Below, in pieces: positions 22,174-34,061 of a DNA stretch of 52,144 nt (the first letter of the stretch is position 1; each line of letters begins with the position of its first letter). Source of the DNA: Actinomycetota bacterium (lineage in GTDB: Bacteria > Actinomycetota > Acidimicrobiia > Acidimicrobiales > Acidimicrobilacustridaceae); assembly GCA_009700115.1 (NCBI GenBank), contig WLMU01000004.1, positions 1-52,144 of the forward strand. The letters run 5' to 3'. The notes under the pieces were generated by a model. It made no database searches. It saw only the letters and a program-made list of their open reading frames with translations, and was not told the origin of the DNA. Made by a program: the position numbers and the translations under genes.

Positions 22174-22302
22174 TTGATCAGACTGCCACGTTCGGTCAGG
22201 CAGCGAACAAACCTCATTTCACGGCGGTTTCGTTCGAACTTCGACCTCTAAAGAGATTGCCTGAAAGCGATACATTGCCTACTCCACCAGCTGGAGTTGT
22301 TC

Positions 22303-25300
22303 GTGAGACTTGACCAACCGATCATCCGATTGCCCATCAGCACCGATATCGAGGCCCTCATCGCCGAGATCAGTGCGATCCCCGATGACGTTTGGCGTCC
22401 CCATCCCGAAGGCATGCCCGGCAACAGTGCCCTACCTCTGGTTTCCGTCATGGGCGATCCAACCAACGATTCCGTCGTGGGCCCGATGCGACCAACACCG
22501 CATTTGGAGGCACTTCCGTCGGTAGTGAACGTCATGGCGGGGCTGACCGGACTCGGCTGCCCCATTGGTCGCACCCGATTGATGCGTATCGACATCGAAT
22601 CGGAAGTGAAATCGCATGTTGACACCAATCGCTATTGGTGGGACCACCTTCGCGTCCACATTCCGATTATCACCGACCCCGCCGTGCTGTTTCACGTTGA
22701 TGATGAATCTGTGCACATGGAACCGGGCAGTTGTTGGGTGTTCGATACTTGGCAACCACACCGTGTCGAGAATCCTGTAAATGCTCCGCGAATTCACTTA
22801 GTCATTGACACTGTTGGTGGTGCCGGTTTCTGGTCCCTCATCGACAGGCAGACGGGAGCACTTGATCCCGATTCACCGCTCCCCGCGGTGCAACAGGTCA
22901 GTGCGATTGCGTTCGAAACTGCGAATCAACCATTGGTAATGCCATCAGCAGAAATCGACCAAACGCTCGCAAATATTCTTCATCAGTTCGCCGAAGTTGA
23001 CCTCGACAAGGCCGTTGAGCTTGACCAAGCGCTCATTTCTTTCCGACGTTCTTGGAAAGCATGCTGGTCTCACTTTGGCGACAACCCTCAAGGTTTTGAT
23101 TCTTTTGACAAGCTTCGAGATGAAGCCGACGCTGTCGTTGACCTCATAGATGATCAACTACCCAATACGGTGAAAGTCAACGAAGCAATCCGTCAACTTG
23201 TACTTCGCCCATCACTTGCGCGAGAAGCCTTTGGTAGTTCTCCGCAGGTTGCACCTGCGACCGATCCCGGAGCTGCGACTGCCGCCGCGGCATCAACTTC
23301 AGCGCAACCACCACAATCCACTTCGCCGACAGTGCCTGCGGCGAAACAAATTGGTGAACCGATCACTCTTGATCGTCCGGTTTTCATCATCTCCTCGCCT
23401 CGTTCGGGCAGCACGATGTTGTTCGAGGCAATGATGCGAGCCAAAGAGTCGTACACAATCGGTGGCGAAAGCCATCAACTCATCGAAGCGTTTGCCGCAC
23501 TCGCTCCTGCTGCGCATGGGTGGGATTCAAACCGCCTCACCGTGGACGACATCAGCCCAGAAATCGTTGAGAAACTCAGCGGCTCGTTTGTGCGTCGGTT
23601 GAAAGATCGTGACGGCGAGCCGGTACAGCCCGGCTCGGTTGTGCGCATGATCGAAAAAACTCCGAAGAACTCTCTGCGCATTCCATTTCTTGCGGCTGCA
23701 TACCCCGATGCAAAGTTCGTGTACTTATGGCGTGACCCGCGCGAGACCATCAGCAGCATGCTTGATGCGTGGCGATCTGGTCGGTTCGTCACCTACCCAG
23801 ACCTGCCTGAGTGGACAGGCGACCGCTGGTCGCTCCTCCTGACTCCCGGTTGGCGCGACCTCATTGGAAAATCACTTCCCGAGATCGTGGCCAATCAGTG
23901 GGTAACAGCAACCACGATGATGCTTGATGATCTTGAAGCACTCGATCCCGATCGTTGGTGCGTCACGAGTTATTCAGCGTTGCTTGCTGATCCCGATACA
24001 GAACTCGCACGTCTCTGCGCCAATCTCGATCTCACCTGGGACACCGAAACGGGTGGCGAACTTCCACTTTCGGCAATGACTCTTGAAGCTCCGCAGGCCT
24101 CAAAGTGGGAACGCAACGCTGAAGAGATGAAGAAGGTCTGGGACATTGTCGATCCCGTTGCGGTTCGTGCACACGATGTTTTCGCCGACCCGCCCCCCAT
24201 CCAGCCTTCAAAAACTCGTTCGGCCGAAGCAGTCAAGGTTGGACTCACTGAAGAACCCGATGGCGCTATCCCCACTGATTTCTCGAGCGTGTTTACCGGT
24301 TCGTTTGCCAGCATTCTTGAGGCTGCGAATTGTTCGCTCGCCGTCACCACCTATCAAAGCGGTCGCCTTGTCCTCGTTCGCCGTGACGGCGACAAGGTCA
24401 ACACGCATCTCCGGTACTTCGCGAGCCCGATGGGGGTCGCAGTGCAAGGCGCAAAGTTGGCGCTCGGCACCAAGACCACGGTGTGGGAGTTCTGGAACCA
24501 ACAGGCTGCTGCGTCAACCATTGACCCTGAAGGTCGTATCGACGCGTGTTACATGCCTCGTCGTGGTCACACCACGGGTGACATTCGGATTCATGATCTT
24601 GGCTACGACGCCGACGGCCAACTTTGGGCTGTCGCAACACGCTTCTCCTGCTTGGTCACGTTCGACCGCGAAAATTCCTTCGCGCCGCAGTGGAGGCCGC
24701 AGTTCATTTCCGGATTGTCTGCCGACGACCGCTGCCATCTCAACGGGTTGGCCATGGTCGATGGCCGGCCGAAATACGTCACCGTTCTTGGCATGACCGA
24801 TACGCCCAACGGTTGGCGCGACGACAAAGCCGCTGGTGGAGCGATTCTCGACATTGATGGCGGGGCTCCGATCACTGTCGGCTTGTCGATGCCTCACTCG
24901 CCGCGCTGGCATAACGGCAAATTGTGGGTGCTCGAGTCTGGCCGCGGCGCACTCTGCACCGTCGATGTTGAAACCGGTGAACGCGAGACCGTCGCGATTC
25001 TCCCAGGCTTCACCCGGGGTCTTTCCTTCGTGGGAAACATCGCGTTCATTGGTTTGTCAAAAGTTCGCGAGACCGTGTTTGACGGTTTGCCAATCACGCA
25101 AGCCGACACGCCTCGCGAATGCGGAGTATGGGCAGTCGATATCAACACCGGCTCCATCGTCGGCTTTATGCGTTTCGAAGGCTCAGTTACCGAACTCTTC
25201 GAAGTAGCAGTACTCCCAGGAACGCAATGGCCAGAACTTGTCGAACCAGGCGCCGAAGCAACAAACGACGCATTCGTGCTCTCTGACGAAGCGTTGAAAG

Positions 25301-25332
25301 ATGTGATTCAACCAGCCAAAAAGGCTGACTGA
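22303..25332 (+). CDS. Three-domain fusion: Asp/Asn beta-hydroxylase-like, sulfotransferase, TIGR03032 (DUF4915)
   Basis: The product has 1009 residues and three recognisable parts. Residues about 60-180 resemble an aspartyl/asparaginyl beta-hydroxylase domain, with the first His near 103 (VKSHVDTN), RVHIPI, then EPGSCWVFDTWQPHRVEN with the second His near 152 and IHLVID. Residues about 355-620 form a sulfotransferase domain: 5' phosphosulfate motif SSPRSGST near 362 and 3' motif WRDPRETISS near 475. Residues about 655-1000 match TIGR03032/DUF4915: LAVTTYQSGRLVLVR, HTTGDIRIHDL, TRFSCLVTF, DDRCHLNGLAM, GLSMPHSPRW, LPGFTRGLSF. An Ala/Ser/Thr/Pro linker (about 312-348) separates hydroxylase and sulfotransferase. 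The GTG at 22303 has GGAG 6 nt upstream; a TTG two codons earlier is too close to it. The TIGR03032 family has no settled function. It stands alone as a transcription unit, divergent from the ligase and convergent with carD. Confidence 0.9.
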   Translation: MRLDQPIIRLPISTDIEALIAEISAIPDDVWRPHPEGMPGNSALPLVSVMGDPTNDSVVGPMRPTPHLEALPSVVNVMAGLTGLGCPIGRTRLMRIDIESEVKSHVDTNRYWWDHLRVHIPIITDPAVLFHVDDESVHMEPGSCWVFDTWQPHRVENPVNAPRIHLVIDTVGGAGFWSLIDRQTGALDPDSPLPAVQQVSAIAFETANQPLVMPSAEIDQTLANILHQFAEVDLDKAVELDQALISFRRSWKACWSHFGDNPQGFDSFDKLRDEADAVVDLIDDQLPNTVKVNEAIRQLVLRPSLAREAFGSSPQVAPATDPGAATAAAASTSAQPPQSTSPTVPAAKQIGEPITLDRPVFIISSPRSGSTMLFEAMMRAKESYTIGGESHQLIEAFAALAPAAHGWDSNRLTVDDISPEIVEKLSGSFVRRLKDRDGEPVQPGSVVRMIEKTPKNSLRIPFLAAAYPDAKFVYLWRDPRETISSMLDAWRSGRFVTYPDLPEWTGDRWSLLLTPGWRDLIGKSLPEIVANQWVTATTMMLDDLEALDPDRWCVTSYSALLADPDTELARLCANLDLTWDTETGGELPLSAMTLEAPQASKWERNAEEMKKVWDIVDPVAVRAHDVFADPPPIQPSKTRSAEAVKVGLTEEPDGAIPTDFSSVFTGSFASILEAANCSLAVTTYQSGRLVLVRRDGDKVNTHLRYFASPMGVAVQGAKLALGTKTTVWEFWNQQAAASTIDPEGRIDACYMPRRGHTTGDIRIHDLGYDADGQLWAVATRFSCLVTFDRENSFAPQWRPQFISGLSADDRCHLNGLAMVDGRPKYVTVLGMTDTPNGWRDDKAAGGAILDIDGGAPITVGLSMPHSPRWHNGKLWVLESGRGALCTVDVETGERETVAILPGFTRGLSFVGNIAFIGLSKVRETVFDGLPITQADTPRECGVWAVDINTGSIVGFMRFEGSVTELFEVAVLPGTQWPELVEPGAEATNDAFVLSDEALKDVIQPAKKAD

Positions 25333-25335
25333 GTT

Positions 25336-30527: not shown

Positions 30528-30833
30528 CCAACTGCACCTCACCAATTGCCCCATCGGTCGATCCACCCGATAGAGTGGTCTCACCGATCTGGGTGGCGAA
30601 GAAGTGTTCGCAGTCCGGTTGGGCGGATGAAGATGACGGTGGTTGAAGCAGGCCAACGGAATTCTTTATCGCTCTGGGCTTCCCCATTACGCCTAGGGCA
30701 GCAGGACACGTAGCAGCCGGTTTCCTCCTGGGTGAGGGGCGGAATGTTGCGGAGCATGACCGGTGCCGACTGGGGATCAGGCGCCACGAGCGGACGCACA
30801 GGTTGCGTTTGCACGAAACCACCAAGGACGTTT
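30528..30833. other. 306-bp region without a confident gene
   Basis: This is the only long gap in the window, between the modC stop and the SNF2 helicase start. A minus-strand frame from a GTG at 30814 to a stop at 30581 (77 codons, with a CYVSCCPRR segment) is open and has a plausible codon pattern, but no recognisable domain, no clear ribosome-binding site, and its start would leave only 19 bp to the divergent helicase start. No tRNA, known riboswitch core or repeat was found. It could hold a small unrecognised gene, a structured leader or ordinary spacer. Confidence 0.35.
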
Positions 30834-33800
30834 GTGCCTCAAGACGACGAGATCGATCAGATCGATACAACTGAGCCGGCTGCGGCAAGTTCCAACGCGC
30901 CCTCCATCGACGTTCACGGCGCGCGTTTCGAGACACTCGTCGAAGCTGCGGCATGGGGCGAAGCCTCTGCCGAAGATCTTGCGATTCTCGAGGCTCACAA
31001 CACCGCGTGGCAACGCGTCCTTGTCGAACGATTGAACGACACCGACGAAGCTCTCGACCGGTTGCGTTTACGCCGATCACCTGACGATCAACAAGTCATC
31101 GCCGACCTCGAGAACGAACAACGCAAACTCGAACTCGCCCTCGACCGTCTTTTGGGAATCGAACCTGAAATCGGTGAACTCACTCTTGGCGTCAATGCGC
31201 TGCAACTTTCTTGGGTAACCGGACGCCTCGTGGCATGGCTCGGTGGTCCCGATGCACCGCCAACCACAGTCGAACAACTTCGTACGTTCCTTGCGGCAAC
31301 CGATGCTCCCGAAATGTGGGGCGGCCGTTCTCCCGTCACTCTTCCGAGTGGCGAAAAGACCGTTGCGCTTGAAGCCAACACCAGCGATGTTCTCGGCTGG
31401 CTACTCGCACTTTCCGCAGACCCACCCGAAGAGGAGATCGGTCCCTCCGCTCGATGGATGTCGATCGTTGCCGCATGGGCGGTGTCTCTCGCTGCACGAG
31501 GCGCGATGATTCCGACTTTGCGCCGCTCACGCACCGGTCGACGTAACCAAAATCGAAGTGCGTTCGGCGTCACATGGCAACCGGCACTTATCGATTCCGA
31601 ACGACTTCGCGTCATCGGCGATGCAATGCCCGGAGCAGTCGCAGCGCTTTCACCTTCGGTCGACGGGGCCACAATGACTCGCTCTGTCTTGGCGGAAGTT
31701 GTCGATGTCATTTGCTTCGACGCAGCACGTCGCGTCGAAGTTGCGGCTGCTCCCGATGATCCCAAAACAATCGCTGCCGCTGCCGAGTCATTCCTTGCTC
31801 GTCTCGACGGAACTGCATTCGAGGTTCCTGCCGGTATCGCCGGAGAACTCACTAACTCGATTGAACGCTGGGCAACGCCAGTTCTCTCGCGCAACTATCG
31901 ACCGCTCATCGTTCAGCTTGATCCACCAGATTCTGGCGACGCCTGGCATCTCGCAGTTTTTGCACCCGGCAAGGGCGAACAGCTCACCCCCGTTGAAGTC
32001 GCGCTCGTGAATGCCGGCAACCAACGACGCGAACTCGAAGGAAATCTTGTTCGCCTTGAACGTCTCTATCCGCCGCTTATGCGTCCAGGCAGTATGCGGC
32101 GCGGCGAAGTCGTGCTCAGTCAAGAAGAAGCCTGGGAATTGATGTCCAAGGTCGGACTGGTTCTTGCCGATGCCGGTTTCGAGATGCGTGTGCCGGCGCT
32201 CTCACGCCGCAAGGCCACTCCATCGCTGCGCATCTTCGCTGAATCGAACGGGGAAACCTCGGTCGGTGCGCACCAACTCGCGAACGTCAGTTGGACCGCA
32301 GTCTTTGACGACATCGAACTCACCGCAGCCGATATTGCGCGTTTGGCGAAAGAAGCACGCCCGTTAGTTCGCGCCAACGGACGATGGGTTGCACTAGATC
32401 ATGCCGATCTTGCTGCTGCAGCAGAAGCACTCGCCGAGCGGGCAAAGAAGCCACAGATGACTGGCGCGGAAATGCTGCGTCAGGCTCTCGGCCTCGATGG
32501 TTCACCGTTGGCCGGTGGCGTCTCCATCGATGGTTCAGGCTGGGCTGCCGACCTCATGGCCAAGGCATCGACCGCCTCACTGGCCCCGGCATCGAATCCC
32601 GACGGATTCAAGGGAGAACTACGCAGCTATCAGGCCGACGCATTGGCATGGCTGAAATTCCTCGACACCACCAGCCTCGGTGGATGTCTTGCCCTCGACA
32701 TGGGCCTCGGAAAGACACCGACAATTCTCGCCCATCTCGTCGACAGCATCAGTGACGCGCCTTCGCTTGTCATTGCGCCCCCCGCCGTTGTCGGCAACTG
32801 GGCTGCCGAAGCACGTCGCTTCACTCCTGAACTTTCGGTGGTCGTTCACCATGGCGTTGGGCGTGCCGATCACAAAGAAATCGCCGAAGAAGTTGCTCGT
32901 GCTGATGTCGTCATCACCACGTACGGAACAGCAGTGCGCGATATCGAAGCACTCGAGAAAATCACATGGGGCCGAATCATCCTTGATGAAGCACAGGCCA
33001 TCAAGAACCCGGCAAACGAAACTGCTCAGCAACTTCGCCGCCTGAATGCATCATCGCGACTCGCGCTCACCGGCACTCCGATTGAAAACGGATTGGGCGA
33101 TCTTTGGGCGATTCTCGATTTCACCAATCCCGGCCTCGTCGGACCTCGGCCTCAATTCATTGCGCAACTTTCGGCCACCGGCGCTACCGGTCGAGATCAA
33201 GGCGAACGTGCACTTCGCGCACTTAACGGCATCCTCGTCTTCCGTCGCACAAAGTCCGAACCCGCGATCGCCGCCGAACTCCCCGACCGCATCGACGAAC
33301 TCGATCATTGCTCGATGACGCCCGAACAGATCGGCTTGTATCAAGCAGTGCTTGACAGTCTCGTTACCGGAGCGGCGCTCGAATCAGGTGCCGACAATCG
33401 CAACGGCCGCATTCTGGCTGCCATCACTGCGCTCAAACAGATCTGTAACCATCCCGTTGCCTACCGCCACGACGATGGTCCACTCGACGGTCGGTCAGGG
33501 AAACTCGCGCGCCTCGAGGAAATCATCGAACAGGTTTACGCCGCTGGCGAGCGCGCACTCGTGTTCACGCACTTTGCCGAGTGGGGCCAGAAACTCGCCG
33601 AACATCTCTCCACGCGTTTCGACAATCCCGTCGGTTGCTACCACGGCGGACAATCACGAGGCGCTCGCGATCAACTTGTTGCCGACTTCCAGGCGCTCGA
33701 AGGCCCTGGCACTCTCGTACTTTCACTGAAGGCAGGCGGCACCGGCCTCAACCTCACCAATGCCAATCACGTCATCTTGTATGACCGCTGGTGGAATCCT

Positions 33801-34061
33801 GCGGTAGAAGATCAGGCACGTGATCGAGCCTGGCGAATTGGGCAGGACAAAACGGTGATTGCCCATCGTCTCGTGTGTCCCGGCACTGTCGATGAGCGAG
33901 TCGAGGAAGTCGTGGCCGGCAAGCGCCACATCGCCGATCTCGTTCTTCCTAAATCCAGTTCGCTCGGCGATCTCGATTCCAACCAGTTGCAAACCGCGCT
34001 TGGCTTGCGGACCGATGAGCTTCTGTCCGATACCGATGACCTTGAAGGGAGCCTCACATGA
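30834..34061 (+). CDS. SNF2-family DEAD/DEAH-box helicase
   Basis: This 1075-residue protein has a long N-terminal region (about 1-590), including a part resembling the SNF2-associated domain of bacterial enzymes, and then a SWI2/SNF2 ATPase. The ATPase shows LRSYQADALAWLKFL, Walker A LDMGLGKT near residue 622, LDEAQAIKNP, LTGTPIENGLGDLWAILDF, then the helicase C domain with LVFTHFAEWGQKLAEHL, GGTGLNLTNANHVILYD and DQARDRAWRIGQ. Such enzymes translocate on double-stranded DNA and remodel nucleoprotein; the bacterial role is unclear, probably repair or replication-fork handling. The GTG at 30834 has AAGGA 5 nt upstream, better than earlier in-frame ATGs at 30732-30756. It overlaps the next gene by 4 bp. 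Confidence 0.94.
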   Translation: MPQDDEIDQIDTTEPAAASSNAPSIDVHGARFETLVEAAAWGEASAEDLAILEAHNTAWQRVLVERLNDTDEALDRLRLRRSPDDQQVIADLENEQRKLELALDRLLGIEPEIGELTLGVNALQLSWVTGRLVAWLGGPDAPPTTVEQLRTFLAATDAPEMWGGRSPVTLPSGEKTVALEANTSDVLGWLLALSADPPEEEIGPSARWMSIVAAWAVSLAARGAMIPTLRRSRTGRRNQNRSAFGVTWQPALIDSERLRVIGDAMPGAVAALSPSVDGATMTRSVLAEVVDVICFDAARRVEVAAAPDDPKTIAAAAESFLARLDGTAFEVPAGIAGELTNSIERWATPVLSRNYRPLIVQLDPPDSGDAWHLAVFAPGKGEQLTPVEVALVNAGNQRRELEGNLVRLERLYPPLMRPGSMRRGEVVLSQEEAWELMSKVGLVLADAGFEMRVPALSRRKATPSLRIFAESNGETSVGAHQLANVSWTAVFDDIELTAADIARLAKEARPLVRANGRWVALDHADLAAAAEALAERAKKPQMTGAEMLRQALGLDGSPLAGGVSIDGSGWAADLMAKASTASLAPASNPDGFKGELRSYQADALAWLKFLDTTSLGGCLALDMGLGKTPTILAHLVDSISDAPSLVIAPPAVVGNWAAEARRFTPELSVVVHHGVGRADHKEIAEEVARADVVITTYGTAVRDIEALEKITWGRIILDEAQAIKNPANETAQQLRRLNASSRLALTGTPIENGLGDLWAILDFTNPGLVGPRPQFIAQLSATGATGRDQGERALRALNGILVFRRTKSEPAIAAELPDRIDELDHCSMTPEQIGLYQAVLDSLVTGAALESGADNRNGRILAAITALKQICNHPVAYRHDDGPLDGRSGKLARLEEIIEQVYAAGERALVFTHFAEWGQKLAEHLSTRFDNPVGCYHGGQSRGARDQLVADFQALEGPGTLVLSLKAGGTGLNLTNANHVILYDRWWNPAVEDQARDRAWRIGQDKTVIAHRLVCPGTVDERVEEVVAGKRHIADLVLPKSSSLGDLDSNQLQTALGLRTDELLSDTDDLEGSLT

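Follow-up and report, generated by a model that had tools for sequence, protein, structure and literature searches.

What is modified by a protein that holds a hydroxylase, a sulfotransferase and a long-uncharacterised propeller domain in a single chain? The question is raised by one gene in a 52,144-nucleotide stretch of DNA from an Actinomycetota bacterium of the order Acidimicrobiales (assembly GCA_009700115.1, contig WLMU01000004.1, positions 1 to 52,144; hereafter the window). This fusion gene encodes, in order, a 2-oxoglutarate/Fe(II) (2OG/Fe(II)) hydroxylase domain, a sulfotransferase domain of the kind that uses 3′-phosphoadenosine 5′-phosphosulfate (PAPS), and a domain of the DUF4915/TIGR03032 family. 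We propose, at about even chances, that the protein works in the cytoplasm on surface proteins destined for export, those of the right-handed beta-helix, choice-of-anchor-Q (choice_anch_Q) type, which it would hydroxylate and then sulfate with DUF4915 as the substrate module.

Three domains in one conserved protein

All three parts are matched by family profiles well above their cut-offs. In Pfam these are PF05118 over residues 67-170 (53.8 bits against a curated cut-off of 22.6, E 2.6e-14), PF13469 (Sulfotransfer_3) over residues 359-580 (86.3 bits against 27, E 4.8e-24) and PF16261 (DUF4915) over residues 667-979 (412.8 bits against 35, E 1e-123); in NCBIfam, TIGR03032 matches residues 665-990 with 402.7 bits against a trusted cut-off of 251.5, covering profile positions 6-332 of 335. 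A first-pass annotation, made from the letters alone, had described three real domains with complete active-site motifs, and the profiles together with the conserved metal-site and PAPS motifs bear this out; the ORF (open reading frame) check and the same profiles likewise agree with its coordinates, strand, length and domain order.

In the hydroxylase domain, the facial triad H105-x-D107...H153 and R163 are invariant in 8 diverse aligned domains, and the predicted iron ligands (HxD...H) and 2OG-binding arginine are present. The annotation had allowed that the profile match or the metal site might be lacking, which would have left a sulfotransferase-TIGR03032 pair; the PF05118 match and the complete set of metal-site residues answer that doubt. 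The domain was modelled alone (residues 1-306) with a mean predicted local distance difference test score (pLDDT) of 75 and a core near 90, against 30-40 for this part in the whole-protein model built from 16 sequences. In a fold search the separate model matched AspH, a beta-hydroxylase and proline hydroxylases with Z of 15-16, and the predicted fold is the 2OG/Fe(II) double-stranded beta-helix.

The sulfotransferase fold rests on sequence profiles, since the fold search with the whole model was filled by propeller matches. A profile of nine such domains matches CurM-type/olefin-synthase and protein-tyrosine sulfotransferases (TPST) about equally. Among the hydroxylase-sulfotransferase proteins examined, all 13 keep HxD...H with R163 and the motifs for binding 5′-phosphosulfate and 3′-phosphate, PR[SA]GST (S or A allowed in the loop) and EKTPKN...R477; the PAPS motifs have drifted in two sulfotransferases that lack the hydroxylase (L035, L093). 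An adenosine 5′-phosphosulfate (APS) kinase, for PAPS, is encoded in the window genome (G000).

The model of the DUF4915 part is a high-confidence beta-propeller. Its nearest matches are YWTD-type propellers (Z 24, 242 residues aligned, root-mean-square deviation 2.8), and it also resembles strictosidine-synthase and gluconolactonase-like propellers; a profile search against the PDB gave nothing significant. An alignment of 18 diverse DUF4915 sequences has 40 invariant columns, with His, Asp, Arg and Cys among them, which suggests that the domain holds a specific binding or catalytic site.

Counting the window's own, 8 genomes of the genus carry the fusion intact and full-length, at 76-97% identity; other copies are partial or broken. 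Whole fusions at about 46% identity occur in G042 and G167, which belong to another family and have the same domain order. Parts of it are spread more widely: the hydroxylase-sulfotransferase part occurs in a Lysobacterales metagenome-assembled genome (L036), on a Diaphorobacter plasmid (L080) and on an Asticcacaulis plasmid (L154), and sulfotransferase-DUF4915 proteins in L035, L093 (G082), L092 (G003) and, in part, L101. Diaphorobacter has separate genes for the hydroxylase-sulfotransferase and for TIGR03032, with a 4-bp overlap; the same three parts stand there as neighbouring genes, a Rosetta-stone relation to the fusion. The three-part order, for which the annotation knew no described enzyme and asked for a search of other genomes, is thus found in at least two families of the order, with parts in Proteobacteria, and is not unique to the window protein. 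Compared with a 92%-identical relative, codon positions 1 and 2 differ by 5.5% and position 3 by 43%; third-position change is about eight times that at positions 1 and 2, and the fusion gene is therefore under purifying selection. Intact, conserved fusions in independent assemblies rule out chance or an assembly chimera, and a phage origin is rejected, the only phage match being one to a hydroxylase in one mycobacteriophage at 8% coverage.

Exported repeat proteins as candidate substrates

The evidence on the substrate comes from the neighbours of the enzyme in related genomes. Downstream of the fusion, on the same strand, lies a secreted choice_anch_Q beta-helix protein in both G042 (52 nt away, 1005 aa) and G167 (96 nt away, 1223 aa). 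Sulfotransferase-DUF4915 genes have similar company: at the second locus of G003 a choice_anch_Q protein is found 131 nt away, after the gene on the same strand, and in G082 one is divergent at 41 nt. The Diaphorobacter locus has a divergent beta-helix protein with a 13-nt overlap, identified from its repeats and IPTL-CTERM. There are 11 choice_anch_Q matches in the Lysobacterales genome that encodes the hydroxylase-sulfotransferase, one weak match in a Nanopelagicales genome with sulfotransferase-DUF4915, and none in five genomes with DUF4915 but without a fused sulfotransferase at the locus. A long ORF adjoining the Lysobacterales gene (L036:5307-7928) was set aside, having no Pfam match and being probably antisense.

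The association extends to DUF4915 genes in general. An exported repeat protein lies within two genes of DUF4915 at 12 of 13 annotated plasmid loci, classed by hand from their annotation; the types are choice-of-anchor Q, IPTL-CTERM, autotransporter, Ig-like, cadherin-like, VCBS and FG-GAP. Such proteins make up 13 of 51 near genes against 2 of 174 farther genes in the same regions (p 8e-8). A giant DUF4347/RTX protein stands near DUF4915 at a chromosomal locus of Marinomonas and an autotransporter in L047, and loci of Altererythrobacter and Erythrobacter have secretion-type genes (recognised by eye) and giant ORFs without a Pfam match. DUF4915 is also fused to GT41 glycosyltransferases with tetratricopeptide repeats (TPR; a planctomycete and Acaryochloris) and to GNAT acetyltransferases (Nostoc, Gloeothece), and in L042 a PKHD-type 2OG oxygenase is encoded two genes upstream of it. 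The domain is thus associated both with group-transfer enzymes and with exported repeat proteins.

Given how consistently secreted repeat proteins are encoded beside DUF4915, an exported protein is a likelier substrate than a small molecule. In the mechanism that we propose, the DUF4915 propeller would, in the cytoplasm, bind the beta-helix protein while it is unfolded or nascent; the 2OG/Fe(II) domain would hydroxylate a side chain, to judge from its family most likely that of an Asp or Asn residue within the beta-helix repeats; the sulfotransferase would add a sulfate, most simply onto the new hydroxyl; and the negatively charged surface protein would then be exported by its signal peptide. 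That both catalytic steps fall on the same residue is something that we infer. Hydroxylation plus sulfation, which the annotation had suggested for a peptide or small molecule, remains the natural reading of the intact domains, with the substrate moved towards an exported protein. Its idea that the third domain is a substrate module and no random addition fits the wider context of DUF4915, to which we would assign that role. More broadly, and as a tentative claim that we regard as less than probable, DUF4915 may be a general substrate-recognition (or third catalytic) module of widespread, undescribed surface-protein modification systems with exchangeable catalytic heads, the product here being O-sulfated beta-hydroxy-Asp/Asn on exported beta-helix proteins.

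Genome-level counts are weaker evidence than gene adjacency. The window genome encodes two choice_anch_Q proteins, one of which ends in a sortase-type LPTTG signal. Within the genus, choice_anch_Q occurs in 12 of 14 genomes with the fusion or DUF4915 and in 0 of 5 with the carD site that flanks the gene but without the fusion (Fisher p 0.002); within the order the figures are 12 of 15 DUF4915 genomes against 76 of 382 others (p 2e-6) or, by genus, 7 of 9 against 58 of 194 (p 0.005), and all these counts are weakened by kinship, the genomes not being independent samples, and by draft quality. Two genomes, G005 and G016, seemed to have choice_anch_Q and no fusion, but the whole carD locus is missing from both, and the absence of the fusion there probably reflects incomplete assembly. 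G020 has a CarD identical to that of the window; its interval at L164 5968-6075 is a deletion scar of the fusion gene, and choice_anch_Q was not found in this genome, which is 83% complete.

Several facts weigh against a beta-helix substrate, besides the kinship and the classification by hand already mentioned. The choice_anch_Q candidates of the window genome lie on other contigs and do not adjoin the fusion gene. Two drafts, G006 and G015, have the fusion with no choice_anch_Q detected. The 76 genomes of the order that have choice_anch_Q and no DUF4915 show that these proteins do not require it. At the Asticcacaulis locus, the genes clustered with the hydroxylase-sulfotransferase encode a TonB receptor, another Asp/Asn hydroxylase and two further sulfotransferases; DUF4915 is absent, as is any neighbouring beta-helix protein. 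By sequence, finally, the closest PF05118 relatives with solved structures are proline hydroxylases, which act on free amino acids.

Acceptors and the coupling of the two steps

The alternative that survives best, though we think it unlikely, keeps the surface protein as substrate and lets the hydroxylase and sulfotransferase act on different acceptors, such as Ser/Thr or Tyr sulfation apart from Asp/Asn hydroxylation, with DUF4915 only recruiting. Sulfotransferase-DUF4915 proteins without a hydroxylase exist (L035, L093, L092, L101), two of them adjoining the same kind of candidate substrate, and sulfation is therefore not always hydroxylase-dependent. The sulfotransferase profile matches protein-tyrosine sulfotransferases among others, and Tyr is the usual acceptor of protein sulfation. 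However, Tyr makes up only 1.1-2.9% of the candidate beta-helix substrates, compared with about 4-10% each for Asp and Asn, and the recurrence of the hydroxylase-sulfotransferase fusion in distant phyla (L036, L080, L154) points to coupled steps.

It is quite improbable, in our estimate, that a small molecule or free amino acid is hydroxylated and then sulfated, the surface-protein adjacency in relatives being incidental. This would suit the proline hydroxylase relatives, the sulfotransferases of CurM and olefin synthases, which act on acyl intermediates, the absence of a partner gene adjoining the fusion in the window, and the Asticcacaulis cluster with its TonB receptor. On the other hand, there is no biosynthetic cluster around the gene at the window locus, and exported repeat proteins neighbour DUF4915 across Actinomycetota, Planctomycetota, Cyanobacteriota and Pseudomonadota. 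In the CurM mechanism sulfate serves as a leaving group. A similar course here, in which beta-hydroxylation, sulfonation and elimination yield a dehydro residue or crosslink with the propeller as third catalyst, would agree with the CurM and olefin-synthase profile matches and with invariant DUF4915 columns that suggest an active or binding site rather than a simple scaffold, but we consider it very improbable. DUF4915 is also found with a glycosyltransferase, with an acetyltransferase or without any obvious transferase, and in such settings sulfate would not be expected as a leaving group.

Coupled hydroxylation and sulfation of an exported beta-helix protein, our preferred reading, would give DUF4915/TIGR03032 a testable role, that of partnering or targeting the enzymes by which large exported proteins are modified, and if true it predicts coupled hydroxylation-sulfation of bacterial surface proteins. 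The frequent proximity of enzyme and candidate substrate opens the idea to a direct test. All three domain families are known; the literature searched yielded no description of the architecture, of its conserved link to exported beta-helix proteins or of the general link between DUF4915 and exported repeat proteins, no mention of TIGR03032 or DUF4915 by name, nothing on a hydroxylase-sulfotransferase fusion acting on surface proteins and nothing on sulfated hydroxyasparagine. A 2020 review of extracellular bacterial protein modifications names no sulfation or sulfotransferase and has 'hydroxyl' only as an acceptor group of O-glycosylation (PMC10450907). There is a real chance that the modification is new.

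The locus, related copies and known systems

Features of the fusion gene and its surroundings are collected below. A TTG codon 6 nt upstream offers an alternative start; the GTG is supported because homologues all open with M-x-L at the same alignment column.

Features of the fusion gene and its interval in the window
Feature	Position	Strand	Remarks
Whole fusion gene	22303..25332	+	1009 aa, single protein, GTG start at 22303; start backed by alignment
Interval from acyl-CoA synthetase gene to carD	22174..25335	.	108 bp in relative G020, where ~40 nt from the 3′ end is all that is left of the fusion gene
2OG/Fe(II) hydroxylase domain (Asp_Arg_Hydrox, PF05118), residues 1-180	22303..22842	+	Pfam profile, alignment, predicted fold
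Facial triad and Arg codons	H105 22615-22617; D107 22621-22623; H153 22759-22761; R163 22789-22791	+	
Helical region, residues 215-300	22945..23202	+	No profile match; common to hydroxylase-sulfotransferase proteins L036, L080; weakly conserved
Ala/Pro-rich low-confidence linker, hydroxylase half to sulfotransferase	23203..23358	+	
PAPS sulfotransferase domain (Sulfotransfer_3), residues 353-630	23359..24192	+	Pfam profile and motifs
5′-phosphosulfate loop PRSGST (residue 366); EKTPKN (residue 451); R477	23398-23415; from 23653; 23731-23733	+	
DUF4915/TIGR03032 beta-propeller domain, residues 660-985	24280..25257	+	Profiles, predicted fold; many invariant His/Asp/Arg/Cys

The fusion gene is the only gene of its orientation at the locus: upstream is an acyl-CoA synthetase gene and downstream are carD and an MFS transporter gene, all on the minus strand and named by inspection. 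The annotation's picture of a self-contained machine alone in its transcription unit holds for the window, where no secreted partner adjoins the gene and the large ORF at 30732-34061 is an SNF2 helicase; it does not carry over to related genomes, in which a secreted beta-helix gene follows the enzyme, and the window genome has such genes elsewhere.

Some related copies deserve mention in their own right. In G019 (L027 7968-11036) the fusion has one in-frame TAA in the PAPS region of the sulfotransferase, from early decay or an assembly error, and the genome has a single, weaker choice_anch_Q match. The 596-aa hydroxylase-sulfotransferase of Asticcacaulis (L154 10001-11788, plus strand) is annotated only from 10916, so that the record omits the hydroxylase half. 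Azospirillum lipoferum has a PF05118 hydroxylase fused to an EamA transporter within a flagellar gene region (L156 8001-9779, plus strand). Records titled Bifidobacterium breve, CAMAYJ and CAMCTY (L030, L031, L032, L033) carry the freshwater actinobacterial gene at up to 98% identity, and their organism names look wrong.

Around DUF4915 loci, tandem DUF4915 pairs adjoin exported proteins in L096, L097, L099 and L100; those of L096, L097 and L099 share a related core and differ at the C-terminus (an LPTTG anchor with Calx-beta, RTX-like repeats, or other). Genes of sulfate activation or reduction (cysC, cysH-type, sulfite reductase, cysDN-like) are found a few genes away from several DUF4915 or hydroxylase-sulfotransferase loci, including some without a visible sulfotransferase (L088 1-67, L078 22490-25044, L099 9305-12126, L036 10042-14287); those of L036 and L099, the latter cysD/cysN-like genes after the tandem locus, were recognised by eye only. 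One Marinomonas stretch (L046 1-9038 and onward) holds a PF05118-like hydroxylase, a second oxygenase-like protein, three phage-tail-collar-like proteins, DUF4915 and the giant DUF4347/RTX protein, its middle genes again being recognised by eye only.

In the genus, secreted proteins of unrelated types share the exact C-terminal ending P-x-F-[TA]-G, in many cases preceded by a Thr/Ser-rich linker (for example L138 3-1679, plus; L092 6904-8532, minus; L147 6479-7459 and 7600-8766, plus; L144 83-688, minus; and many others). The corresponding DNA pattern occurs 20 times against 4 for a reversed control in the window genome and 48 against 3 in G003, and the protein ending may be an unrecognised C-terminal sorting tag. 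A tie to the fusion is ruled out, as the tag is also enriched in most genomes without it.

Several known systems resemble parts of the window protein. Its third domain matches TIGR03032/DUF4915 proteins over their full length, whereas most relatives found are stand-alone or joined to other transferases. The sulfotransferase shares PAPS-site profile matches with TPST and CurM-type enzymes, but its overall similarity is weak and divided between the two. With human AspH and bacterial PF05118 hydroxylases the window protein shares the profile match and the predicted fold, its HxD...H and Arg positions being conserved within the group; AspH, however, is fused to TPR and acts on epidermal growth factor (EGF)-like domains in the endoplasmic reticulum, whereas the window enzyme is joined to a sulfotransferase and a propeller. 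The closest working analogues are Aah/AIDA-I and TibC/TibA, in which a dedicated modifying enzyme is encoded with a large exported repeat-bearing protein: a heptosyltransferase with its self-associating autotransporter, Aah being reported to recognise a structural motif and not a sequence (PMC3835316). An enzyme gene adjoining its candidate target, as in the Aah/TibC type, is seen in G042, G167, G003, G082 and Diaphorobacter, but not in the window genome. Aah and TibC are single enzymes that transfer heptose, whereas the window protein combines hydroxylase, sulfotransferase and DUF4915, and its candidate substrate may lie elsewhere in the genome.

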